In this document: positions 3,045 through 20,615 of the stretch, one piece after another
Position numbering within the stretch: the first letter of the stretch is position 1
Layout of the letters: the number at the start of each line of letters is the position of its first letter
Virus record (IMG/VR): IMGVR_UViG_3300025010_000180
Span: 1-31,318 of that record
Length of the DNA stretch: 31,318 bases
From: a virus
Strand: one strand, 5' to 3'
The notes under the pieces: model-generated
What the model was told of the DNA's origin: nothing
Databases searched by the model: none
Seen by the model: only the letters and a program-made list of their open reading frames with translations
Program-made: the position numbers and the translations under genes

Positions 3045-3568
3045 TGCGTAAACTAGAAATAGGATGCGATAACAAAAGGCTTGATGAGAGTTGGGAAACA
3101 CTAGACATACTAGAGGGGATTAACGTTGATATAGTCGCCGATATTTCCCAACCATTAACCACGATAGAAGATAATACCTACGATTTGATCTATATGAGCC
3201 ATATCCTAGAGCATATAGCATGGTATAAGACCATAGATGTATTAAAAGAAATTCGCAGAATATCAAAGGTCGGCGGAGTATTGGAAGTGTTTGTACCAGA
3301 TATTGATAAGATTATAAGTGCATATCAAAAAGAAATAATCCCTGATGAATGGTATAGATTTAATCCTGATAAGAACCCATTCCTTTGGTTTGTTGGTAGA
3401 ATATTCACATACGGCAATAATGATACTGATTTTCATAGAGCAGCTTTCAATAAGAAACACCTTAAGGAGTGTTTAGAGAATGCAGGATTTAACAAAGTAG
3501 AATCAGCTAGAATGCCAAGAGGCGTAAGTCATGGCTATATAAACTTGGGTATGAAAGGAATCAAATAA
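3044..3568 (+). CDS. Class I SAM-dependent methyltransferase (174 aa)
   Basis: The N-terminal L-E-I-G-C-D segment is a short motif I, S-adenosylmethionine-binding. Y-D-L-I-Y-M-S-H-I-L-E-H-I (about residues 45-58) is the typical motif IV region of small methyltransferases, followed by I-S-K-V-G-G-V-L-E-V-F-V-P-D. The length fits minimal Methyltransf_11-type enzymes. I chose ATG 3044, which shares its A with the preceding TAA and follows GAGGA, over an upstream in-frame start at 3008. The gene stop overlaps the next glycosyltransferase start in the same TAATG fashion, so expression is tightly coupled. The partner genes suggest a sugar, nucleotide or surface-glycan substrate, but the target cannot be read from sequence. 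Confidence 0.85.
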   Translation: MRKLEIGCDNKRLDESWETLDILEGINVDIVADISQPLTTIEDNTYDLIYMSHILEHIAWYKTIDVLKEIRRISKVGGVLEVFVPDIDKIISAYQKEIIPDEWYRFNPDKNPFLWFVGRIFTYGNNDTDFHRAAFNKKHLKECLENAGFNKVESARMPRGVSHGYINLGMKGIK

Positions 3569-4395
3569 TGCGTATAGCTTGGATAGCAGACTACACAATC
3601 AAAGAACATTTAGGAGGAGCACAACAGACCAATGCACGAATGATCAACTACGGTAGAGAACTAGGCCATGAGATAATCGAGTACACAGCCAAGGACTTGG
3701 ATATGAAAATGAATGTTGATTTGCTTATAACCAATAATATCACCACGTTCAATATAGAAGACATTAAGAAGTTAATGGAAAGAATACCAACTATCAGATA
3801 TGACCATGATATATGGTGCAGTATAGAGAGACCAGAGGTATTTGATGGAACTATACAGAATATATTCCTAAGCCCATGGCATCAGGAAAAGGTAGGGATA
3901 AACATGAAGAGAGTAGTTCAGGGAGTTTGCATACCGTCTCCTATAGATTCAGATATATTTAACAAGACTGGAGCGGTAAAAGAAGAGAATTCTGTGATAT
4001 GGGTGGGTACACTAGCCCCACATAAAGGATTTGATAGGCTTGTAGAATATGCGGTACAAAACCCACAAAAGAAGATTAGAGTAGTGAGCTTTGACAGTAT
4101 GGAAACCAAAAATGCACCGAATATTGAGTTTATAGGTGAGAGACACGGCGAAGAACTAGCAGACTTGTATAGAAAAAGTGAGATATTCTTTTCACATCCA
4201 GACCACGAGGCTTTTGGTAGGACAGTTATGGAAGCTTATCTTTGTGGATGTAAATTAGATTTGAACGAGAATGTTGGTGCAATGTCCTATGATTGGGATT
4301 ATACTGATTACAACGAGGTCAAAAACCATCTTCAGTCAGAGGTTAAGTTCTGGCGAGAGATAGATAACGCGATGAGTAAGTTAGAAAAGATTTAA
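3568..4395 (+). CDS. GT-B fold glycosyltransferase, GT4-like (275 aa)
   Basis: The N-terminal domain starts M-R-I-A-W-I-A-D and has a glycine-rich G-G-A-Q-Q-T loop at 16-21, as in GT-B acceptor domains. The C-terminal domain has V-I-W-V-G-T-L-A-P-H-K-G-F (143-155) and the donor-binding E-x7-E pattern E214-A-F-G-R-T-V-M-E222, characteristic of GT4-type retaining enzymes. The protein is shorter than most GT4 members (350-400 aa), so both lobes are compact. ATG 3568 overlaps the previous stop by one base and has AAGGA upstream. With the neighbouring GDP-mannose dehydratase-like enzyme it could transfer a deoxyhexose or mannose-derived sugar, onto virion, host surface or DNA; the acceptor is not deducible. 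Confidence 0.85.
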   Translation: MRIAWIADYTIKEHLGGAQQTNARMINYGRELGHEIIEYTAKDLDMKMNVDLLITNNITTFNIEDIKKLMERIPTIRYDHDIWCSIERPEVFDGTIQNIFLSPWHQEKVGINMKRVVQGVCIPSPIDSDIFNKTGAVKEENSVIWVGTLAPHKGFDRLVEYAVQNPQKKIRVVSFDSMETKNAPNIEFIGERHGEELADLYRKSEIFFSHPDHEAFGRTVMEAYLCGCKLDLNENVGAMSYDWDYTDYNEVKNHLQSEVKFWREIDNAMSKLEKI

Positions 4396-4412: not shown

Positions 4413-5447
4413 ATGGAGCAAAAGACAGCATTTATATCGGGCTTACCAGGCCAGGATGCCGCATATCTTGCTAAATTCCTATTAGAAAAGGGATATAAGG
4501 TAGTTGGCGGACAAAGAAGAAACGCAGAGAGGTCATTCAGTAGACTGAAGAAGATGGGAATACTAGATAAGATTGAAATAGTAGACTTTGAATTACTAGA
4601 GGATTCAAATATAGTAGATATAATTAGAAAGTATCAGTTTGATGAGTTCTATAACCTAGCAGCACAGAGTTTTGTAGGAACTTCATTCAAGAATCCTATA
4701 TACACAATAGAAGTTAATGGATTGTCAGTGTGTAAAATGCTTGAGGCTATTAGAATGTATTCACCCCATACTAAATTCTACCAGGCTTCTACGAGCGAAA
4801 TGTTTGGAGATGTTAAAGAAACCCCACAAAGTGAAAACACCCCATTCAATCCAGTAAGCCCTTACGGATGTGCTAAGTTGTTAGCTCATACAATGGTAGA
4901 AACTTACAGGAGTAGCTATGGCATATTTGCTTGTGCTGGTATACTTTTCAATCATGAATCACCACTTCGAGGAGATGAATTCGTAACCAAGAAGATTACC
5001 AACTATGTTAGAGAGTATCAGGGTGATACTTGCTTCACAGTTCCAAAGAGACCAGAGAAGCCATTACAACTAGGCAATATTCACTCAAGGAGAGATTTCG
5101 GATTTGCAGGAGATTATGTGGAGGCTATGTGGTTGATGTTACAACAGCCCAAGGCTGATACTTATGTTATTGCTACTGGTAAGACATGTTACATTAAAGA
5201 TTTTATTGAAATGGCATTCAAAGAAGTTGGAGTTACTTTAGAGTGGAGAGGAGAAGGATTGAAGGAAAGAGCAATAGACGTAAACACAGGCAAGAGAGTT
5301 ATAGAGATATCTGAAGAGTTTTACAGACCACATGATGTTGAATTATTGCTTGGGGACGCTAAGAAGGCTAATACAGAACTTAACTGGACACCTAAGCACG
5401 ATCTAAAAGCATTGGTATCTCTTATGGTAAATGACCAGATTGACTAA
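4413..5447 (+). CDS. gmd: GDP-mannose 4,6-dehydratase-like SDR epimerase/dehydratase (344 aa)
   Basis: This is an extended short-chain dehydrogenase of normal length for the GDP-mannose dehydratase family. The Rossmann motif is G10-L-P-G13-Q-D; the usual G-I-T-G-Q-D-G is altered so that Ala follows Q-D. Other hallmarks are Q-R-R at 34-36, N-L-A-A-Q-S-F-V at 81-88, the S-T-S-E-M-F-G catalytic segment at 126-132, Y151-G-C-A-K155, and N-H-E-S-P-L-R-G-D-E-F near 180-190. The known reaction converts GDP-mannose to GDP-4-keto-6-deoxy-mannose using bound NADP. Start ATG 4413 has no Shine-Dalgarno. It ends the sugar cassette. No fucose synthase or reductase is visible, so a host enzyme would have to finish the pathway. 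A related UDP/GDP-sugar dehydratase activity remains possible. Confidence 0.88.
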   Translation: MEQKTAFISGLPGQDAAYLAKFLLEKGYKVVGGQRRNAERSFSRLKKMGILDKIEIVDFELLEDSNIVDIIRKYQFDEFYNLAAQSFVGTSFKNPIYTIEVNGLSVCKMLEAIRMYSPHTKFYQASTSEMFGDVKETPQSENTPFNPVSPYGCAKLLAHTMVETYRSSYGIFACAGILFNHESPLRGDEFVTKKITNYVREYQGDTCFTVPKRPEKPLQLGNIHSRRDFGFAGDYVEAMWLMLQQPKADTYVIATGKTCYIKDFIEMAFKEVGVTLEWRGEGLKERAIDVNTGKRVIEISEEFYRPHDVELLLGDAKKANTELNWTPKHDLKALVSLMVNDQID

Positions 5448-8283: not shown

Positions 8284-9530
8284 TGGCTGAAGATAAAAAG
8301 ACAAAAGAATTATCAAGTAAAATCTCTCTTGCAGACCAATTTACTGGCAGAGCGTCAGTCATAAAAGGTAAGGACGGTAAGAAGTCCAGAAGAAAACCAG
8401 GAATACCTTATTCAAGCCTTAGAAACCTGAGTAGGAATAACGATGTTGTAAGAGTTGTAATCGACAGGGTAAAGCATAGAGTAACAAAGACACCATGGTT
8501 TATAAGAGCTAAAGATTCTGATAAGCATGAATCATTAAAGCCTTTTGTTAGTTACGTTACTAAACTATTAGAATTCCCTAATAACAATGATGATACCTTT
8601 AGAACTCTAGTATCAAAGATAGTTGAAGATATTCTTGCATTGGATAGAGGTTGTATTGAAAAAGTAAGAAACGTTAAGGGAGAGGTTGTTGAATTACACC
8701 AGGTAGATGGTAGTACTATTTATCCAAACATAGATGAATACGGATTATTCCAAGAGCCTGCATACTACCAGTTCTTTCAAGATACAGTAGAACCTATTGC
8801 AGAACTAGAAGACAAGGATATGTTGATATTTGTTATGAATCCTAGTGGTGAAGCTGGCAGATTAGGTTATGGTAACTCTCCGATAGAGAATGTTATAAGC
8901 ACGGTAATGACCTCACTTCAGGGTATGATGTACAACGCAGATTACTTTGACTCTGAGAAAGTGCCTCCATTTTGGGCTAACCTTGCAGGAGTCCCAATAG
9001 ATGAACTGAATAGATTTAGTGTGGCATTCAATAACCAGTTAAGCAAAGGTAATTGGAAATCTCCATTTACAAACGCAGAAAAGGCAGATATCAAGCTACT
9101 GAGACCTACCAATCAAGATATGCAGTTCTATGAATTGAATCTATGGTTAACCAGAATAGTATGTTCCGAGTTTGAAATATCACCAGAGGAAATAGGTTTG
9201 ACGATGAATAGCAACCGATCAACTGCAGAAGAGCAGAAAGGAATCACATCTGAGGGTATAGACAACGTACTCAGAGTAATAAGTGAAGAATTTAATAATG
9301 ACCTGATAGGAGATTTAGCGGAGACCGTCGATGAAAGGTTTAACGAGATAGAATTCGTATGGGATTCAGATGTCGAGATGGATGAGAAACAGAGAGCAGA
9401 GATTGACGAGATACAGATTAAGAATGGGCTAAGGACTGTAGATGAACTAAGAGAAAGAGATGGATTAGACCCTATCAAGAAACCTGCTACGGTGAATGAT
9501 ATTTTAGCCAAGCATAGGATAAGGAGATAA
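8283..9530 (+). CDS. Portal protein (415 aa)
   Basis: The dodecameric portal forms the DNA channel at the capsid vertex. Family evidence: Y-S-S-L-R-N-L-S-R-N-N-D-V-V-R-V-V-I near the N-terminus, then a conserved central region ending in N-A-E-K-A-D-I-K-L-L-R-P-T and F-E-I-S-P-E-E-I-G-L-T, typical of Phage_portal members in HK97-like phages. The C-terminal D-E-L-R-E-R-D-G-L-D-P segment is also classic. The start is GTG at 8283, sharing one base with terL's stop. The gene ends in AAGGAG-ATA-ATG, giving the next gene a strong but close Shine-Dalgarno. Length is normal. Confidence 0.94.
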   Translation: MAEDKKTKELSSKISLADQFTGRASVIKGKDGKKSRRKPGIPYSSLRNLSRNNDVVRVVIDRVKHRVTKTPWFIRAKDSDKHESLKPFVSYVTKLLEFPNNNDDTFRTLVSKIVEDILALDRGCIEKVRNVKGEVVELHQVDGSTIYPNIDEYGLFQEPAYYQFFQDTVEPIAELEDKDMLIFVMNPSGEAGRLGYGNSPIENVISTVMTSLQGMMYNADYFDSEKVPPFWANLAGVPIDELNRFSVAFNNQLSKGNWKSPFTNAEKADIKLLRPTNQDMQFYELNLWLTRIVCSEFEISPEEIGLTMNSNRSTAEEQKGITSEGIDNVLRVISEEFNNDLIGDLAETVDERFNEIEFVWDSDVEMDEKQRAEIDEIQIKNGLRTVDELRERDGLDPIKKPATVNDILAKHRIRR

Positions 9531-11413
9531 TGGAAGATAAAAACGAGCATATACAAAATGGAGAGCAATATCCATTAGAAATTAAATCTACAATGGATAA
9601 GGCCGAAGAGAGAATGACTAGAAAGGTCATCAGTTCATTCTCTAAATGGAATTACCCTGTTTTTCAATGGGCTGTTGGAATTATTAGCGATTTTACTCAC
9701 CAGAATCAAGAGGTTAGGAAGAGTGATGAAAAAATGCTTGTTCCAACTGAATCAGAACTCACCAAAGAACTTGGGGCATTGATTGTAGTAGACGATTTCC
9801 TAATAGACAACACAACTTTACTAACGCCTATGCAGAATGCTGTAGGATATTCATTCAATACTCTGGCGACTGAAGTAGGTAGCCAAAGCATGACCAACGC
9901 AATACTTGGAGCTATGAATCTGTCATTTGATATCCAGTACGATATGAAAGTATACAACCAGGTATTAGATGATAGAAAGGAATGGTTGGCAGGTGAGTTG
10001 TACGATACCACAATGCAGAAAGTCCCTACAATTATAAGCGCAGGGATAGAGAGTGGGGCTACAATAGACCAGATGACCAATGCTATACAGGACGTACTTG
10101 GTATGGATAAAGATAGGGCTATCAAGATAGCAAGGACAGAAACCAATTATGCTGCCAATGAGGCTATAAGACAGCAAACTCATGTGTTAGGAATAATGAA
10201 ATACAGAATAAGCACAGCAGTAGACGCTTGTGAACTGTGTTTAATGGCTGCACAAAAAGAATACACATTCAGAGAGGCCGAAGGATTATTACCATTACAC
10301 CCTAACGATAGGTGTGTATTACAGTCTGTCATACCAAAGTCATGGTTGGGGATTCAAAAGAGTATATCGGAGAGGGGAATACAGAAGACCATGGACAAAG
10401 GATATATTCCTATTAAGGGAATGGATTACTATACTCCTGATGAAATAGAAGAAGTTAAGAAAGAGGTAACACCAGTAAGGGGAAAGGATTATTTAACTAA
10501 AGAGGAATTGGTTAAGGTTAAGAAAGAAATTGCTCCTAAAAAGGGAGTAGATTATCTTGTAAAGAAAGAGATTGAACTGATTAAAAAAGAAGTTACCCCT
10601 GTTAAAGGTAAGGATTATCGGGACGGCATAGACGCCTACACGCCCAAGAAAGGAGTAGATTACTTTGATGGGAAAGACGGTAAAGATGGGACTGAGATAG
10701 AACCCGAGGAGATAGTCAATAAACTAGAATCAATCACAGAAGATAAAAAGAAACTAGACATAAGGGCTATTAAGAATTTTGATAAGGAGATTAAAAAGAG
10801 AATACCTAAAGTTGTTGTACAAGGTGGTGGTAGAGGGCCAGATGGAAAGGTTAAAGTTGATTCTGATGATGAAAATGGTTACTTGTTGGACAAATTAAAA
10901 GCTGGTACAAACGTAACCATTCAGAAGGATGGGGATAAAGTTAAAATAAACTCTACAGGTGGAACTGGTACTACAGCACATAGTGATTTAACTGAGCTAG
11001 ATTATGTGAATTCTGGACATACAGGATTCCAACCAGCAGGGAGTTATCTTACCTCCGAGACTGACCCTGTATACTCAGCAGATAAGTCTAGCATAGCCCT
11101 TAAAAGCGAAATTCCCGCGGATGTAAGTGAGTTGACAGACACAACAGGGTTGTTGGGGAATGCTACAAAAATACAAGGCTTTGATGTAACTGAAACAGAC
11201 CCAATAGACGGGAAGATACTCGTATACAGAACAGCAACAAGTGAGTATGTGCTAGAGGATAAACCAGAGAGCGGGACTAATCCCGCTGCTAGCGATGTAA
11301 CATTTGCACCAGGTGGAGATATAAGTTCTGTAAATGTACAAGACGCTATAATAGAGTTAGATACTGAGAAGGCCTCTAGGAATTTCGCCATAGCAATGTC
11401 CGCAGCATTATAA
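9530..11413 (+). CDS. MuF-type minor head protein fused to fibre-like modules (627 aa)
   Basis: Residues about 150-268 are a phage Mu gpF / SPP1 gp7 domain: A-R-T-E-T-N-Y-A-A-N at 201-210, then C234-E-L-C237 and H257-x4-C262, the usual Cys/His cluster. Residues 292-385 contain four to five copies of a short repeat (K-G-x-D-Y, a helical spacer, K-K-E-V-T-P), ending in a collagen-like G-K-D-G-K-D-G. Residues about 425-627 resemble tail-fibre or adhesin shaft modules (G-G-G-R-G-P-D-G-K, then L-T-S-E-T-D-P-V-Y-S). MuF proteins normally sit on or inside the head near the portal; a fibre tail here is unusual. The start overlaps the portal stop by one base with AAGGAG at 9521-9526. Expression with portal is strongly supported; the location of the C-terminal module is inference. 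Confidence 0.88.
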   Translation: MEDKNEHIQNGEQYPLEIKSTMDKAEERMTRKVISSFSKWNYPVFQWAVGIISDFTHQNQEVRKSDEKMLVPTESELTKELGALIVVDDFLIDNTTLLTPMQNAVGYSFNTLATEVGSQSMTNAILGAMNLSFDIQYDMKVYNQVLDDRKEWLAGELYDTTMQKVPTIISAGIESGATIDQMTNAIQDVLGMDKDRAIKIARTETNYAANEAIRQQTHVLGIMKYRISTAVDACELCLMAAQKEYTFREAEGLLPLHPNDRCVLQSVIPKSWLGIQKSISERGIQKTMDKGYIPIKGMDYYTPDEIEEVKKEVTPVRGKDYLTKEELVKVKKEIAPKKGVDYLVKKEIELIKKEVTPVKGKDYRDGIDAYTPKKGVDYFDGKDGKDGTEIEPEEIVNKLESITEDKKKLDIRAIKNFDKEIKKRIPKVVVQGGGRGPDGKVKVDSDDENGYLLDKLKAGTNVTIQKDGDKVKINSTGGTGTTAHSDLTELDYVNSGHTGFQPAGSYLTSETDPVYSADKSSIALKSEIPADVSELTDTTGLLGNATKIQGFDVTETDPIDGKILVYRTATSEYVLEDKPESGTNPAASDVTFAPGGDISSVNVQDAIIELDTEKASRNFAIAMSAAL

Positions 11414-11429
11414 GTTTAATAATAATAAA

Positions 11430-14400
11430 ATGGGAAAGAAAAGGATAACAACATATACATTCGACGCTAGTGCAAAAACTATCACCTTTTCAGGTGCTTT
11501 GGATATTGAAGGATTCTCCGTAATAACCAACGTAGTGGATAACATAATTGTTTATCAGTTCAATGACCCATTGTTAGGTGGAACGTTTGATACAAATACC
11601 CTAACCCTCACATACGATACAACCTCCATGGGTGATACTGATGAGTTAATGATTCTCTATGATGATGGAGTTGAAACCACAACGGTGGACGGTACAGTAA
11701 CAGCTAATCTATCTGCAACCGACAACGCAGTTCTCGATGATATAGCTTCAGATACAGAAGCTATTAAGGGTTCTCTAGCTACAGCAGGTGGTTTAGTTGT
11801 AAACTTAGGAGCTAACAACGATGTAACTGTAACAGGAAGTGTAACGGCAGACTTGGGTGCTAACAATGATGTAACAGTAACTTCAGGAGCAATAACTGAG
11901 ACTAATAGTAGTACAATTAAAACCGCAGTGGAATTGATAGACAATGCTATAAGCGGAAATGAAATGCAGGTAGATGTCTTAACCATGCCAACAACTACAG
12001 TACAAGCAACTAATTTAGATGTAAGAGATTTAGTTCAAACATCGGATGCTGTAGCAGTATACGGTTCTGATGATGGTGGCACTACAAAGAGAATAATCAA
12101 GACAGACTCAGGTGGTGCTATACAAGTAGATTTGGAAGTCGCTAATGTAACAGTGAACAACTCCACGGGAGCAAGTGCTGTAAATATCCAAGATGGTGGA
12201 AATTCAATCACTGTTGACGGTGGGGTAACGGCTAATGCTGGCACGAATCTGAACACTTCGGCACTAGCATTAGAAGCAGGAGGAAACCTTGCAGCAATAA
12301 AAGCAAAGACTGACAATATCCCAGCCTTAGGACAGGCTCTTGCAGCCGCTAGTGTTCCAGTAATACTCCCAGCTGCAACAGTAACGACACTCACCCCACC
12401 AGCAGCTATTACAGGCTTCGCAACAAGTGCAAAACAGGACACAATTATTACTCATGTAGACGGAATTGAGGGTTCAGTAGACGGCATAGAAGGATTACTA
12501 ACAACTATCGATGGGGACACAGGAAATATAGCAACCTCTACAGCTCTCCTAGATGACACGGTTTATACAGATGGTGCTGGTACACCTTCAAAGGGGTTAT
12601 TGGTGCTTGGAAGCGATGGTACGAACCCACAAGCCTTATCTACAGACTCATCAGGGAATTTGCAGGTGGAAGTCTTGTCAGCTCCAACTACAGCAGTAAC
12701 AGGCACATTCTGGCAGGTTACACAGCCTATTAGTGGAACGGTTACAGCTAATCTTTCAGCTACTGATAACGCAGTATTAGATGATATTGCAGCAAACCAG
12801 ACAGACGCAAGCCAGAAAACACAGATATCTGATGGAGCGGGGAATGCAGTAACGGTAACAGGGAACAAACTAGACGTAAACGCCTCTGTTGATACGACTG
12901 GATTAGCTACGTCAGCAAAGCAAGATGATATCATAACTGCAATTGGAGATATACCAGGTGGTGGCGGTGTTCAATATGTAGAAGATGACGCGGCAGCAGC
13001 AAATCCAACAGGAACAGCAATAAATCTTATTAGAGCCGATACTCCAGACGCAGTAACTACAACCGATGGGGATAATCTTTCTGCTAGGGGAACTAACAAA
13101 GGAGAATTATATGTAAAACACATAGACGCAATTCCTGTAACAGATAATGGTGGTGCTTTAACGGTAGATGGTACTGTAGCAGTAACAAATGCAGGGATTA
13201 CAACCATTGCAGGTGCAGTGGCGGGTACAGAAATGCAGGTTGATGTACTAACTCTACCTTCTGTAACTGGAACTGTAACGGCAAATGCAGGAACGAATCT
13301 AAATACCTCTACCCTTGCACTTGAAGCTGGTGGTAATCTTGCAGCGATCAAAGCCAAGACAGATAATATACCAGCTCTTGGTCAAGCGTTAGCAGCAGCT
13401 TCAGTACCCGTTATATTACCAGCTGCAACAGTAACGACACTCACCCCACCTGCAGCCATTACAGGGTTTGCAACGAGTGCAAAACAAGATACTATAATTG
13501 ACAATGTTGATGGTATAGAAGGGCTATTGACTACAATAGACGCTGATACAGGAACTATAGCGGGAAAAGATTTTGCTACACAAACAACCCTAGCAGCTAT
13601 GAATGCAAAGATGGTTACTGGAATAGATATTGGGGACGTAACAATCAATAACGCAGCGGGTGCAGCAGCAGTGAACATTCAAGACGGAGGAAACGCAATT
13701 ACAGTTGATGGTAGTGTTACATTGGGGGCAAACACTGGCGTAGATATAGGGAAATTAACAGCCAACCAGAGTGTAAATAATGCTCAAATCAATGGTGTAA
13801 CACCTTTGATGGGTGCAGGGAACACAGGCACAGGTTCGCAAAGAGTTACAATAGCAACAGACCAAGCAGCAGTAGCAAGTAAGGCGGCAATTAATACCTA
13901 TGTAGATGGTTCAATAGTAACAATAGGTGCTAAAACGGATGCGAAATCAACAGCAACAGACACAACAGCAGTTACAGCGATGCAGGTACTCAAACAGATC
14001 TCATATATGGAACAAAACCCTGCTTCAAGAGCAGTTACCAATGCTGGTACGTTTGCTACACAAGCTACGTTGGCGGCAGAAACTACTAAGGTTATTGGAA
14101 CTGTTAATATAGCAGCTTCACAAACAATTGGATTAGCAGCAGGAACAGCGGGAATAGGTAAACTTACAGCAAACAGTGGAGTGGACATTGGAGACGTAGA
14201 TGTATTGAGTCTACCAGCCTTAGCGGCGGGTACGGCTATAATAGGTAAAGTTGGACACGATATAACAGGGATAGGTCATGGAGTTAAAGTTGTAACAACA
14301 GCTGGAACAGACGTAGCCTTAGCTGCTTCTACAGCTTGTAAAAAGGTCGATATTCAAGCTCAAACAGATAATACAGGTTTGATAGCTGTTGGTGGTAGTG

Positions 14401-14543
14401 GAGTAGACGCTACAGAAGCTACTGGGACTGGGATATTGCTAGAAGCTGGTGATATATACACATTAGAGATAGACGATTTGGCTGACGTATACATAGATTC
14501 CACAGTATCAGGAGAGGGTGTACGCTTTACCTACTATTCATAA
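11430..14543 (+). CDS. Large Ala/Thr/Val-rich repetitive structural protein (1037 aa)
   Basis: Residues 1-80 form a distinct beta domain (K-R-I-T-T-Y-T-F-D-A-S-A-K-T-I-T-F) seen, from memory, at the start of phage structural proteins. The rest is low-complexity beta-rich sequence with recurring modules: G-T-V-T-A-N-L-S-A-T-D-N-A-V-L-D-D at about 88 and 436; A-V-N-I-Q-D-G-G-N-x-I-T-V-D-G near 249 and 747; E-M-Q-V-D-V-L-T at 178 and 601; and A-T-S-A-K-Q-D at three places. A block at 266-348 recurs at 616-698 with 80 of 83 residues identical. The last 90 residues form another folded-looking end. No TM or signal is seen. It probably forms a fibre or capsid decoration; the position between MuF and the protease argues for a head association. 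No Shine-Dalgarno precedes the ATG. Confidence 0.85.
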   Translation: MGKKRITTYTFDASAKTITFSGALDIEGFSVITNVVDNIIVYQFNDPLLGGTFDTNTLTLTYDTTSMGDTDELMILYDDGVETTTVDGTVTANLSATDNAVLDDIASDTEAIKGSLATAGGLVVNLGANNDVTVTGSVTADLGANNDVTVTSGAITETNSSTIKTAVELIDNAISGNEMQVDVLTMPTTTVQATNLDVRDLVQTSDAVAVYGSDDGGTTKRIIKTDSGGAIQVDLEVANVTVNNSTGASAVNIQDGGNSITVDGGVTANAGTNLNTSALALEAGGNLAAIKAKTDNIPALGQALAAASVPVILPAATVTTLTPPAAITGFATSAKQDTIITHVDGIEGSVDGIEGLLTTIDGDTGNIATSTALLDDTVYTDGAGTPSKGLLVLGSDGTNPQALSTDSSGNLQVEVLSAPTTAVTGTFWQVTQPISGTVTANLSATDNAVLDDIAANQTDASQKTQISDGAGNAVTVTGNKLDVNASVDTTGLATSAKQDDIITAIGDIPGGGGVQYVEDDAAAANPTGTAINLIRADTPDAVTTTDGDNLSARGTNKGELYVKHIDAIPVTDNGGALTVDGTVAVTNAGITTIAGAVAGTEMQVDVLTLPSVTGTVTANAGTNLNTSTLALEAGGNLAAIKAKTDNIPALGQALAAASVPVILPAATVTTLTPPAAITGFATSAKQDTIIDNVDGIEGLLTTIDADTGTIAGKDFATQTTLAAMNAKMVTGIDIGDVTINNAAGAAAVNIQDGGNAITVDGSVTLGANTGVDIGKLTANQSVNNAQINGVTPLMGAGNTGTGSQRVTIATDQAAVASKAAINTYVDGSIVTIGAKTDAKSTATDTTAVTAMQVLKQISYMEQNPASRAVTNAGTFATQATLAAETTKVIGTVNIAASQTIGLAAGTAGIGKLTANSGVDIGDVDVLSLPALAAGTAIIGKVGHDITGIGHGVKVVTTAGTDVALAASTACKKVDIQAQTDNTGLIAVGGSGVDATEATGTGILLEAGDIYTLEIDDLADVYIDSTVSGEGVRFTYYS
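12225..12473 (+). repeat. Copy 1 of an 83-codon internal duplication
   Basis: This encodes residues 266-348 of the 1037-aa protein and is repeated exactly 1050 bp downstream. The two copies encode nearly the same peptide (three differences), but more than half of the codons differ synonymously. One tract, 12369-12400, is identical over 32 nt. Confidence 0.95.
13275..13523 (+). repeat. Copy 2 of the 83-codon internal duplication
   Basis: This encodes residues 616-698. The 32-nt tract shared exactly with copy 1 is at 13419-13450. One Ser codon even switches between the AGT and TCA families, which cannot happen by a single synonymous step. Protein-level identity is 80 of 83. Confidence 0.95.
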
Positions 14544-14561
14544 GATTATACACAAACAATT

Positions 14562-15572
14562 ATGAGTGCAAACAATGTTATTAAAAAAGTAATCAATTAT
14601 AGATTCAAAGGGCCATGGGCTACTTCCACTGGTTACGCTGTACGAGACCAAGTTGAGGAAGGTGGTAGTACATACACCTGTAGGGTTGCACATACTTCAG
14701 GAACGTTTGCGACTGACTTAGCTGCTAATAAATGGGACTTATACTCACAGGGACTACCAGACCCAAACTTGTCTACAAGTACAACCACTGATATAAGTGG
14801 CTACTTATTTGGAAATGGAACTAATTTGCAATCAGCAAGTGGTGCATGGATTCCCTTCCCAGCAACACTAACGTATAGTTCAATTGATGACCCGACTGCG
14901 GTTGTTACCATTTCAGGCGATTATACAGGTGTATTCTCCGATGGTATGAGAGTGATGATGACCAATGCGGGAAACTTGGTTTGTGGAATAATAAGCAAGA
15001 CCCCGACATATTCTTCCCCTAACACCACAATTTCCTTCCTTCAAGAGATAAATCCTAGTACGGGGACTGCCGCATATCCTCTTGAGGATAGTGCTATCAC
15101 TGCGGCATATTACTCTCACATGAAAGCTCCGTATTCATTCCCGCTTGAACCTTTAAAATGGTCGGTATTTGCTAAGGACACTACGGGGGCAACTCAAGGT
15201 AGCCCAAGTGCAAGCACATGGTACAACCTTGCGAGTGTGTCTCTATCAGTACCAATCGGTTCATGGGATTTAGGATATTATCATTTATATGGTGTGCAGG
15301 AGACCTCTGGAACAACAGCATCAGTCCAAACAACCTTATCTACGGCGAATAATTCTGAATCAGACACATCATTTACCTTCTACTCTGCATACATAGGACC
15401 TACAGGAAGCATAACTCTAAGAAGCCATGCACATAGGGAAAGGAGTTTGTCTGTTACAGCAAAAACGGCATATTACCTTAATACCATGACAGCCGCTGCA
15501 TCAAACGAGAACCTATACAGTTATGGAAATATCAAGGAGACAGTAGTCTACGCAATATCTTCTTTACTATAA
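14562..15572 (+). CDS. Adhesin/tail-fibre-like protein with N-terminal carbohydrate-binding-like module (336 aa)
   Basis: Residues about 17-62 (W-A-T-S-T-G-Y-A-V-R-D-Q-V, S-T-Y-T-C-R-V-A-H-T-S-G-T-F, then A-N-K-W-D-L-Y) resemble a chitin/carbohydrate-binding CBM5/12-type module common on phage fibres. Residues about 95-195 are a beta module (V-V-T-I-S-G-D-Y-T, G-M-R-V, Y-S-S-P-N-T-T-I, A-A-Y-Y-S, S-F-P) also present in the proteins at 27232 and 28016. The C-terminal 130 residues are Ser/Thr/Tyr-rich, like receptor-binding jelly rolls. No enzymatic motif is visible. It lies between two other surface-type genes inside the head module, so it may decorate the head or be a displaced tail fibre. 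The start at 14562 is preceded by TTATACACAA and no Shine-Dalgarno. Confidence 0.8.
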   Translation: MSANNVIKKVINYRFKGPWATSTGYAVRDQVEEGGSTYTCRVAHTSGTFATDLAANKWDLYSQGLPDPNLSTSTTTDISGYLFGNGTNLQSASGAWIPFPATLTYSSIDDPTAVVTISGDYTGVFSDGMRVMMTNAGNLVCGIISKTPTYSSPNTTISFLQEINPSTGTAAYPLEDSAITAAYYSHMKAPYSFPLEPLKWSVFAKDTTGATQGSPSASTWYNLASVSLSVPIGSWDLGYYHLYGVQETSGTTASVQTTLSTANNSESDTSFTFYSAYIGPTGSITLRSHAHRERSLSVTAKTAYYLNTMTAAASNENLYSYGNIKETVVYAISSLL

Positions 15573-15578
15573 AGAGCA

Positions 15579-16682
15579 ATGAGAATAACACATACACCAG
15601 TAATAGACAGTTTAGTTTCTGCTGACCACACCTCTGAGGCTTGTCTAATCACAAAAGAGAACGGAAATATCATACACTTCTATAGATATGCAGCTGGAGA
15701 AAGTGGGAGACATACTGGAAACACAGGAAGAATATACAGAAGAGAGTTTGATGTTGCTACCGAGACATGGGGAGTACCTGCGGAGTTTTATAATAGTGAT
15801 TTTGACGATAGAAACGTAAATGGTGGAAAATTAGCCAATGGGAGAATAGTACTATTTATCTGGATACACGATTATACCGCTCCTGCCATAAAAACAGGGG
15901 TAACCTTTTACAGTGATGATGATGGAGACACATGGAGCGACCCAGTGGACGTTGTTTCCTCTCTTACTGACCCTGTGGCTTACGGAAATATAATAGTTGT
16001 TCCTACAAAAGGGTATATGAAAGGCTTCTTTGACGAGGCTACAAGTTATAGACTGTCTGTACAATTTAGCACGGACGGAGCTACATGGGGAGATGAAGTG
16101 ATTGTCGGGGACTATACCGTTGGCCACGAATACAATTTAAGCGAGCCGAGTTATTCGTATATTGGAGGGGGTAAGATAATCTGTATATGTAGAGACCAAA
16201 ACTATACCACCTATGGCTCTAATTATTACCAGATTACGAGTGATGACTATGGTGCAACATGGAGTACACCGACAAGGACAAACATAGGAGCACCCTATTT
16301 TACTCCTGCACCGACCACATTCTTACACGGAGATAAACTAATCGTCTTGGGAGCAGATAGAAGGACGTACTACACCACGGCTAAATACAATATAAATGAT
16401 GAAGGACTGTTTATCTATTGGGCTTATGCAGAGGATGCATTTTCTACACCTACTGGATATAGAAAGGATACACATATAGATAGGCCGATTGTAGACTCTA
16501 CTCTTACGTTCTATGGTTATCAAAATTATGCTCATGTAACAGATACAAGATACCTAGTAGTGTTCACAGATAGAGATGAAGACGCAACCAATGAGGACGC
16601 AAACTTCTACCAGTTTTATTTAGATATTGAAGGACCAATCGCTGGTAAAAAGTATCGAGCACCGTGTGCGAGTCCAAATTAA
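15579..16682 (+). CDS. Asp-box (BNR/sialidase-like) beta-propeller protein (367 aa)
   Basis: Three Asp-box motifs S-x-D-x-G-x-T-W are visible: S112-D-D-D-G-D-T-W119, S164-T-D-G-A-T-W170 (one residue shorter) and S221-D-D-Y-G-A-T-W228. This spacing is typical of six-bladed propellers of the sialidase superfamily (GH33-like). The body length matches a single propeller. Candidate active-site residues (R71-type acidic/arginine patches near D-D-R-N-V-N-G-G-K and R-D-Q-N) cannot be assigned with confidence, so activity on sialic acid or another glycan is unproven; a binding-only propeller is possible. No signal peptide. It follows the adhesin gene by 6 nt and is presumably a virion-borne surface enzyme or lectin. 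Confidence 0.8.
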   Translation: MRITHTPVIDSLVSADHTSEACLITKENGNIIHFYRYAAGESGRHTGNTGRIYRREFDVATETWGVPAEFYNSDFDDRNVNGGKLANGRIVLFIWIHDYTAPAIKTGVTFYSDDDGDTWSDPVDVVSSLTDPVAYGNIIVVPTKGYMKGFFDEATSYRLSVQFSTDGATWGDEVIVGDYTVGHEYNLSEPSYSYIGGGKIICICRDQNYTTYGSNYYQITSDDYGATWSTPTRTNIGAPYFTPAPTTFLHGDKLIVLGADRRTYYTTAKYNINDEGLFIYWAYAEDAFSTPTGYRKDTHIDRPIVDSTLTFYGYQNYAHVTDTRYLVVFTDRDEDATNEDANFYQFYLDIEGPIAGKKYRAPCASPN

Positions 16683-18125: not shown

Positions 18126-19169
18126 ATGAAAGACATTAGAAAATTAGTGTCGGAGAATGTCGAAAGAATTGAGAAAGCTATCGATACATCTGATATCAAT
18201 GGTCCTACCGTAGGGACAGCAAACGCAATAACACCAAGACAGGATTTGGATGGCGTTTTGCTAAGTATCGCAAACAGAAATACACCTTTTAGAGATATGG
18301 TCTCAAGAAGACAGGGTGTGGGTAGTGCATTCACATTCAACCTAAGAAAGGCATTATTTGCTTCAGGTGAGAGTACAGACCCAAGAAAAGCAGTATATGG
18401 TGATGGTGCATTGCCACAAGCAAAGTCCAGCCTATACTACACTAGAACCACAAGCTACAAAGCAGTTGGTTATAGCGGAACAGTAACAGGAATGGCACAA
18501 GCTCAAGGTGCTGCATTAGTAAACCTATACGCAGAGGAGATTGAGGCTACTACAAGACGAGCAATTCAAGCTGAAGAGTGGTTGAACTTCTGGGGTGATA
18601 GTACCTATATAGACCCAACTACAGGAGAAGCTGCTTACAATGGTTTAGATTCTTTGATTACTACTAACGTAGTAGACGCTGCAGGTGCAACAATATCAAA
18701 GGTTTTGATAGACCAGGCTTGTAACTTAATTGGTCAACAGGGTGGATTCGCAACTGATATGTTCACATCATTCAGAGTAGCTGACAAAATCAGTAACCTC
18801 TATGAGAGTACAACCTCAGTTACAGTTGTAAGTGGTGAAGTTAGAGATAATATTGTCTACGGACAAAGAGTAAAGAATATCTTAACAAGCATTGGAAACT
18901 TGAATGTACAACCTGATTTCTTCATTAATCCTGGGAACACATATCCTTTGGATAATGGATCAACAAGTACTCCAAGTGGTGCAACAACTTCAACAGTGTT
19001 CATTCTATCTATGCCTTATATCAAAATGGTTGATTTACAGGCTCTTGGAATGGAAGAGTTAGGTAGAACCGCTGACAAGAGAGATTTCTTTGTCAATGAG
19101 TATACCGCCATGGAAGTCAAGGCTGAACCATGGATGGCAAAAATCACGAACGTCTTAGATACTCTCTAA
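18126..19169 (+). CDS. Major capsid protein, HK97 fold (347 aa)
   Basis: It is directly downstream of the protease-scaffold, of normal length, and has MCP hallmarks: an N-terminal helical arm with L-V-S-E-N-V-E-R-I-E-K-A-I, a segment L-D-G-V-L-L-S-I-A-N-R-N-T-P-F, the central A-E-E-W-L-N-F-W-G-D and G-L-D-S-L-I-T-T-N, and a conserved C-terminal region ending E-Y-T-A-M-E-V-K-A-E-P-W-M-A-K-I. It self-assembles into the capsid shell. It resembles the SU10/DUF5309-type capsid group from memory. Notably, the ATG of this very abundant protein lacks a Shine-Dalgarno; the leader is A-rich. It ends 18 nt before the stem of a strong terminator. Confidence 0.93.
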   Translation: MKDIRKLVSENVERIEKAIDTSDINGPTVGTANAITPRQDLDGVLLSIANRNTPFRDMVSRRQGVGSAFTFNLRKALFASGESTDPRKAVYGDGALPQAKSSLYYTRTTSYKAVGYSGTVTGMAQAQGAALVNLYAEEIEATTRRAIQAEEWLNFWGDSTYIDPTTGEAAYNGLDSLITTNVVDAAGATISKVLIDQACNLIGQQGGFATDMFTSFRVADKISNLYESTTSVTVVSGEVRDNIVYGQRVKNILTSIGNLNVQPDFFINPGNTYPLDNGSTSTPSGATTSTVFILSMPYIKMVDLQALGMEELGRTADKRDFFVNEYTAMEVKAEPWMAKITNVLDTL

Positions 19170-19334: not shown

Positions 19335-20615
19335 ATGAAAGTATTCTGTGAAAGGTATCCAAACATTTCTGTATTCCTAAAAGGGCAGATTTATCAATTT
19401 ATGAATGGTTCGTGTGAGATTCCAGATTCTATGGCGTTGGAATTAGCTAGAAACAAGGAATATACGATAGCTGTAAGCGAAAAGACCTCATTTCCATATT
19501 CCCCATTTGACCCCGCTAAGTGGAAAGATGACAGGAAACTCATTTGGGACGGCCCGATAGGGTATAACAACGGCTATGGTAACGCTTCTTCAGGGTTCAT
19601 GCTAGGATTGGACAAGGTTTGTAATCTATCTGTTGTGGCTAGTACATGGCAAGGAACGGATTTACACTATATTCCTGACAGATTATCAAAGATATTAGAG
19701 AGGACTACGGACAAAATAGATTCATTCTATGTTAAATGCTTCCCTGCCTTTGAATTCAAGAACAGAGTAGCGGAAAGATATATAGGATATACTATGTTAG
19801 AAGCCTCAAGAATTCCACAGAGTTGGGTAGACAACATGAATAACAGTTGCGAAAGGGTAATTGTACCATGTTCACACCAGAAGCAAGCCTTTATCGATAG
19901 TGGTGTCAAAAGAGACGTGGAAGTTATCCCTATTGGCCTTGAGGTGGACAATTTCCCTGAGGTCAAGCCACCTAAAGATGATGAATTCATATTTGGAACA
20001 ATGGGTACACTTACATATAGAAAAGGTACTGATGTACTCGTAAAAGCATTCAGAAAGGCATTCCCTAAGAAGGACTACCCTAATGTAGGCATATTCATTA
20101 AGACTATTCCTGTTGGCGGTATTGCTCACGCCTGGTTTGCCGATGGTGAACTACTAAAGAGCGATGATAGAATCCGCTTGTATACTCAATCATTAAGCCC
20201 TAAGGAACTAATATCAGAGTTCTTTGCAAAGATTAACTGTTTTGTATTCCCTACAAGGGGAGAAGGCTTCGGATTACCACCACTAGAGGCTATGTGTGTT
20301 GGACTTCCAACCATAGCGACCAATTGGAGTGGAACTGGAGACTTTGTACTCCCTGATGTAGCATATCCATTGAACTATAAGATAGTGGACGTCCCTAGAG
20401 GCGATTGGAAGGGCTATCCACCTTCATTACAAGCAGATGGTATGCAATGGGCCGAACCTAGCGTAGACCACCTTGTAGAGCTTATGAGAGAGGTATACAA
20501 CAATAGGGACAAAGCAGAGAAGAAAGGTAAGAAAGCTAGAAAGTTTGTACTTGAAAACTACAACAATGTAACCGTTGCACAACAATTAGTTGATTATTTA
20601 GATAGAAAGTTCTAG
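19335..20615 (+). CDS. GT-B glycosyltransferase, GT4-like, within the structural cluster (426 aa)
   Basis: The donor-binding domain shows G-T-M-G-T-L-T-Y-R-K-G-T-D at 221-233 and the E-x7-E motif E310-G-F-G-L-P-P-L-E318, followed by A-M-C-V-G-L-P-T-I-A-T-N, all typical GT4. The first 50 residues (V-F-L-K-G-Q-I-Y-Q-F-M-N-G, then A-L-E-L-A-R-N-K-E-Y-T-I) look like a small extra domain resembling short phage structural sequences; that resemblance is uncertain. Unlike its neighbours it has a strong Shine-Dalgarno (AGGAG, 8-nt spacing), its own leader and an upstream terminator, so it is an independently controlled unit between capsid and connector. A substrate sugar made by the cassette at 2226-5447 and a capsid or tail acceptor are plausible but unproven. 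Confidence 0.88.
   Translation: MKVFCERYPNISVFLKGQIYQFMNGSCEIPDSMALELARNKEYTIAVSEKTSFPYSPFDPAKWKDDRKLIWDGPIGYNNGYGNASSGFMLGLDKVCNLSVVASTWQGTDLHYIPDRLSKILERTTDKIDSFYVKCFPAFEFKNRVAERYIGYTMLEASRIPQSWVDNMNNSCERVIVPCSHQKQAFIDSGVKRDVEVIPIGLEVDNFPEVKPPKDDEFIFGTMGTLTYRKGTDVLVKAFRKAFPKKDYPNVGIFIKTIPVGGIAHAWFADGELLKSDDRIRLYTQSLSPKELISEFFAKINCFVFPTRGEGFGLPPLEAMCVGLPTIATNWSGTGDFVLPDVAYPLNYKIVDVPRGDWKGYPPSLQADGMQWAEPSVDHLVELMREVYNNRDKAEKKGKKARKFVLENYNNVTVAQQLVDYLDRKF

Follow-up and report, generated by a model that had tools for sequence, protein, structure and literature searches.

Introduction

Polyubiquitin repeats are near-identical as protein and carry many silent differences, and it has been debated whether their likeness stems from exchange or from selection (concerted versus birth-and-death evolution; PMC10457151, in the part drawn on here). 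For DNA exchange between diverged sequences, the lambda Red system recombines genes with 22% divergence efficiently and mostly non-reciprocally, and its joints can lie within very short identical blocks (as described in a portion of PMC2327257). Homeologous recombination on diverged DNA is also carried out by phage Rad52-like annealases (PMC3945230, again in part). The retrieved portions of the literature on codon divergence and conversion in phage repeats, and on the letters of the module motif, contain nothing on the module family analyzed here, and the family is undescribed in the libraries searched. We investigated two copies of this module within one gene of a phage, using a stretch of 31,318 bases that comprises the whole virus record IMGVR_UViG_3300025010_000180 (hereafter the window).

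Results

Two module copies share their peptide and differ in their codons

The starts of the two 83-codon copies (Table 1) are separated by 1050 nt, and other sequence lies between the copies. Eighty of 83 residues are identical, the exceptions being A/T, T/D and H/N (copy 1/copy 2). At the codon level 34 positions are identical, 46 differ synonymously and 3 change the residue, while 58 of 249 nucleotides differ. The synonymous differences include a serine codon switch, AGT at 12351 and TCA at 13401. An earlier sequence-only reading had described this duplication, and its 80 of 83 shared residues, 46 synonymous codons, serine switch and 32-nt identical tract were all confirmed. The 83-codon copies it delimited are real and were drawn slightly too short, with 13 further codons that match at 11 residues once the 21-nt piece of copy 1 is passed. 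Its remark on a like style in other modules of the protein is likewise borne out. The best protein self-alignment pairs residues 83-671 with residues 431-1012 (236 of 539 identical), and its silent sites show 137 synonymous differences compared to 143.2 expected.

Table 1. Coordinates of the module copies, their parts and the neighboring genes in the window.
Feature	Position	Strand	Remark
Repeat-built protein, 1037 aa, probable virion fiber/appendage	11430-14543	+	ORF; gene position
Long-range self-similarity, first span	11676-13442	+	partner 12720-14465; shift ~350 residues
Module copy 1, 83 codons	12225-12473	+	in frame in ORF 11430-14543
32-nt identical tract, copy 1	12369-12400	+	probable conversion patch
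21-nt piece (SVDGIEG), copy 1 only	12474-12494	+	
Copy 1 continuation, 13 codons	12495-12533	+	11/13 residues as in copy 2
Module copy 2, 83 codons	13275-13523	+	in frame in ORF 11430-14543
32-nt identical tract, copy 2	13419-13450	+	probable conversion patch
Copy 2 continuation, 13 codons	13524-13562	+	
Mu-F-like minor head protein	9530-11413		directly before repeat-protein ORF
CBM_5_12 match	14562-15572		adjoins repeat-protein ORF
BNR-repeat protein	15579-16682		after CBM_5_12 match
Capsid protein	18126-19169		block leading to capsid gene follows repeat-protein ORF

The repeat protein is encoded within a structural gene cluster

The window contains a tailed-phage structural cluster encoding the small and large terminase subunits, a portal protein, the Mu-F-like minor head protein, a capsid protein of SU10 type, a tape measure protein and an M23 peptidase. 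The repeat-protein gene lies within this cluster and adjoins the head genes. Based on its repeats, its composition, its place and its CBM_5_12 and BNR-repeat neighbors, the 1037-aa protein is probably a virion fiber or appendage. The protein itself has no match in Pfam, PHROG or PDB. When it was searched together with 73 relatives, none of the 74 proteins matched a fiber family and two matched phrog_5838 (virion structural protein). PDB profile matches to the C-terminal domain, the module and the N-terminal domain had best E values of 0.013, 0.35 and 0.6, respectively, too weak to trust. The structure models are low-confidence monomer models, with a mean pLDDT of 66.7 for the module and 44.6 for the whole protein.

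Several further features of the window concern its surface proteins and sugar genes. The CBM_5_12 and BNR-repeat genes (14562-16682) are located between the repeat protein and the genes leading to the capsid, and perhaps represent a glycan-binding surface block. In the Mu-F-like protein the C-terminal part is long, contains KGxDY repeats and includes a collagen-like stretch, GKDGKDG, which gives the impression of a fused fiber segment. A GDP-mannose dehydratase-like gene is present at 4413-5447, one glycosyltransferase gene sits immediately behind the capsid gene (19335-20615) and a second is found at 3568-4395; these genes hint at possible glycosylation of virion proteins. Separately, a repeat array 358 nt long spans 1074-1432, its units being of GGCTAT/GGCTCT type and 18, 30 or 42 nt in length. 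Two forward frames (Gly/Ser/Tyr-rich, 1025-1438; Ala/Leu/Met-rich, 1074-1706) and one reverse frame (1058-1486) stay open through it.

The module recurs in many metagenomic phages

In a first scan of viral contigs, 296 stretches were confirmed to be relatives; with a ceiling of 80 loci per scan, 79 loci entered the analysis. Seven near-duplicate loci (L001, L017, L024, L027, L034, L035 and L061) were left out, reducing 137 module stretches to 120. For pairwise comparisons, 126 distinct ORFs remained out of 288, with 203 copies in 125 of them, and a pair was used if it had 45 or more aligned columns and 35 or more identical residues. Two or more module copies are present in 60 of the 125 distinct ORFs. 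The genomic neighbors of the relatives are diverse, with no family found in more than 3 of 64 upstream or 2 of 55 downstream neighbors scanned. The module had no match in 50,697 phage records, a search in which the BLAST low-complexity filter may hide some matches, and the whole 1037-aa protein gave one weak partial match in the phage collection. A scan of bacterial genomes located the module in 3 contigs of metagenome-assembled bacterial genomes.

Silent sites are at saturation

To obtain an expectation for silent differences, each copy was taken to draw its codons independently from the codon usage of its own gene. Copies 1 and 2 are then expected to differ silently at 48.3 codons (sd 4.3), or at 51.2 codons if the usage of the other genes is applied, and 46 differences are observed. 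Outside the 32-nt tract, 39 silent differences face 37.7 expected (aligned columns). The wider family behaves in the same way. Across all 73 columns of the 120 module copies, silent identity stays within -0.03 to +0.06 of expectation. Totals are 64888 observed and 65781.3 expected for 2295 between-gene pairs, 735 and 768.4 for 28 within-gene pairs, and 907 and 939.9 for a smaller first set of 47 within-gene pairs with a looser length limit. Two single within-gene pairs lie above expectation, one in L013 (z +2.48) and one in L156 (443/530, z +2.37). The silent sites of copies 1 and 2 are at saturation, neither below nor above random.

The sequence-only reading had suggested that codon divergence would limit recombination between the repeats. 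No excess of silent differences is found in the window pair or over the 28 within-gene pairs, and the longest identical run of the window pair is longer than chance, not shorter. Since the silent differences amount to independent codon draws, no codon pattern built to block recombination is evident. Scrambled codons need no selection of their own here, and the pattern as a whole is an ordinary outcome of peptide selection and phage recombination.

The 32-nt tract is likely a short conversion patch

Identical runs of at least 32 nt occurred in 0.3% of pairs simulated with the gene's codon usage and in 0.09% with that of other genes, column permutation gave 0.285%, and a permutation of the polymorphic codons across 17 aligned copies gave P = 0.005; these values are modest and, as the tract was picked by eye, optimistic, and 10 codons are little data. 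A module of another phage, L002, provides a reference for silent ancestry. Outside the tract, copy 2 and the L002 module show 23 silent differences compared to 34.2 expected (z -3.1). Inside the tract, copies 1 and 2 differ at 0 of 10 codons while copy 2 and L002 differ at 8 of 9. The counts show copy 2 sharing silent ancestry with the L002 module outside the tract and switching to copy 1 within it.

Among within-gene pairs, 3 of 26 have clustered identical runs (P < 0.02); the between-gene figure is 15 of 2283 (Fisher 0.0009). Leaving out the window pair gives 2 of 25 within genes (P = 0.014). L156 represents a second case, in which two copies have 52 of 53 residues in common, scrambled codons and an 11-codon identical run that sits elsewhere in the module. 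Together with the run-length statistics and the switch relative to L002, these data lend moderate support to a short, recent conversion patch between the repeats, one of two origins that had been proposed for the tract. The idea that both tracts have derived residues (T, V) unique to them was considered and dropped, since these residues are also present in other phages (L032, L044, L045).

The other proposed origin, a conserved nucleic-acid element, finds no support. Silent identity in the tract columns of the 120 module copies deviates from expectation by only -0.01 to +0.03. Among viral contigs the 32-mer is confined to this virus and one further contig that is 100% identical to the window over 14,900 bases, so that strain variation is absent. 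Folding of the tract is not unusual on either strand (z -0.37 on the + strand, +0.55 on the - strand), and an Rfam scan of the window returned no match.

The peptide is under strong selection

For copies 1 and 2, NG86 estimates are dN 0.060 and dS 2.03 over 83 codons, a ratio of about 0.03 that is rough because dS is at its ceiling, and dN 0.049 and dS 1.48 over 73 codons, likewise rough at saturation. The strong selection on the peptide that had been proposed is borne out by these values. Near-invariant module residues are P, GQ, A, S, PV and TP, and P298, G301, Q302 and P310 are among the motif residues invariant in 74 aligned proteins. Four recent between-phage comparisons (dS < 0.3) gave dN/dS of 0 to 0.11. 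Two recent within-gene module duplicates gave higher ratios, 0.40 in L179 (3176-4627; 5 of 48 silent differences) and 0.26 in L069 (4677-5330; 5 of 39). Because of this difference between the between-phage and within-gene ratios, peptide constraint is strong yet not uniform across the family. NG86 rates across the family are mostly uninformative, with 11398 of 11618 pairs saturated or undefined. The median dN/dS is 0.50 over 220 family pairs with nominal dS of 0.05-1, most of which we judge to be low-dS draws from saturated comparisons.

With regard to protein identity, the window pair stands alone: of the silent-saturated pairs, 25 within genes and 2086 between genes, no other reaches 0.95, and the best between-gene pair has 0.947. 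A general rule that the same-gene partner is the nearest in protein fails, being true for 13 of 37 copies.

Discussion

Origin of the module copies

We favor an explanation, with a probability of about 0.75 for the whole, in which an old shared module is held by purifying selection, its silent sites are saturated and a short conversion patch has been added. An old and widely shared virion-protein module would be present in two copies, its peptide kept alike by purifying selection and its silent sites having drifted to saturation, both as documented above. The module would form part of a repeat-built, probably fiber-like surface protein, a role suggested by gene position, repeats and composition. 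Its wide sharing is consistent with modules being shuffled between phages through recombination. Along the line leading to this phage, homeologous recombination would have copied a patch of at least 32 nt from one repeat into its partner, as we infer from the run length and the switch in silent ancestry. A strand-annealing pathway of the phage or its host is the probable, putative agent. Several observations count against this explanation. The P values of the tract are modest and the tract was picked by eye, and the one other contig that contains it offers no strain variation. Shared purifying selection does not single out the outlier identity of the window pair, and the recent within-gene duplicates in L179 and L069 look less constrained. 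For the fiber role, the structure models are poor and known fiber families give no match.

A variant compatible with the favored explanation has each copy acquired from a different phage through module shuffling, instead of by duplication inside the gene, with one conversion afterwards. The modules are mosaic between phages and copy 2 is silently nearer to the L002 module than to copy 1, which makes separate uptake a tentative possibility. Against it, the two copies are identical at 72 of 73 aligned columns while either one reaches at most 0.90 with other phages, and the self-similarity with its shift of ~350 residues fits an old internal duplication equally well. For the tract itself, two saturated copies could have agreed at ten successive codons by chance, and a P of about 0.003 for one pair is attainable when a whole window is scanned for oddities. 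We regard chance as unlikely given the excess of clustered runs within genes, which persists without the window pair, and the silent ancestry switch relative to L002. The outlier protein identity of the window pair leaves room for selection on sameness inside one protein. The copies would then be kept equal within one fiber, for example as two equal binding or assembly sites (putative), and their concerted evolution would need no exchange of DNA, with the window pair as the extreme case in an undescribed phage fiber-module family; we consider this joint reading doubtful.

Two readings assign a function to the nucleotide sequence, and both appear far less probable. Codon divergence between the repeats could have been selected as a natural form of codon scrambling that prevents recombinational deletion of the stretch between them. 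Silent divergence outside the tract is indeed complete and the pairs in L013 and L156 exceed expectation, but scrambling predicts a general excess that is seen neither in the window pair nor over the within-gene pairs. Modules of unrelated phages are equally randomized, recent repeats in some genes (L179, L069) are almost the same in sequence and the longest identical run of the window pair exceeds chance length, making selected scrambling very improbable. We give even less credence to the tract being a DNA or RNA element whose function keeps the two copies the same. Such an element would account for a run of more than chance length shared by the copies, but the tract columns are at silent expectation across the family, the 32-mer is missing from all viral contigs save the 100%-identical one, neither folding nor Rfam points to a structure, and the identical run of L156 occupies another module position.

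Under the favored explanation, silent sites in phage repeat proteins can randomize fully while the peptide hardly changes, and codon divergence alone is therefore no sign of an anti-recombination design. The module family, with its many multi-copy ORFs, represents a set for measuring short-tract exchange between diverged repeats.

Comparison with known systems

The 1037-aa protein resembles phage tail fibers and virion appendages in being a repetitive Thr/Ala/Gly/Val-rich protein encoded inside a structural cluster, and tail fiber families are found among the upstream neighbors of its homologues (3 of 64 for each of three families). It differs from them in matching no fiber family and in the position of its gene next to head genes. 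With regard to lambda Red, the substrates of about 22% divergence described in the consulted portion of that work are similar to the module copies, which differ at 58 of 249 sites. The difference is that conversion is deduced here from sequence alone, with no recombinase identified in the 31-kb record. As in polyubiquitin, the module copies are conserved as protein with silent sites at random expectation. In contrast to polyubiquitin, the phage copies are located 350 residues apart in a mosaic structural protein instead of head-to-tail, and show no sign of being cleaved into monomers. The module copies consequently evolve in a polyubiquitin-like way yet are no polyubiquitin.
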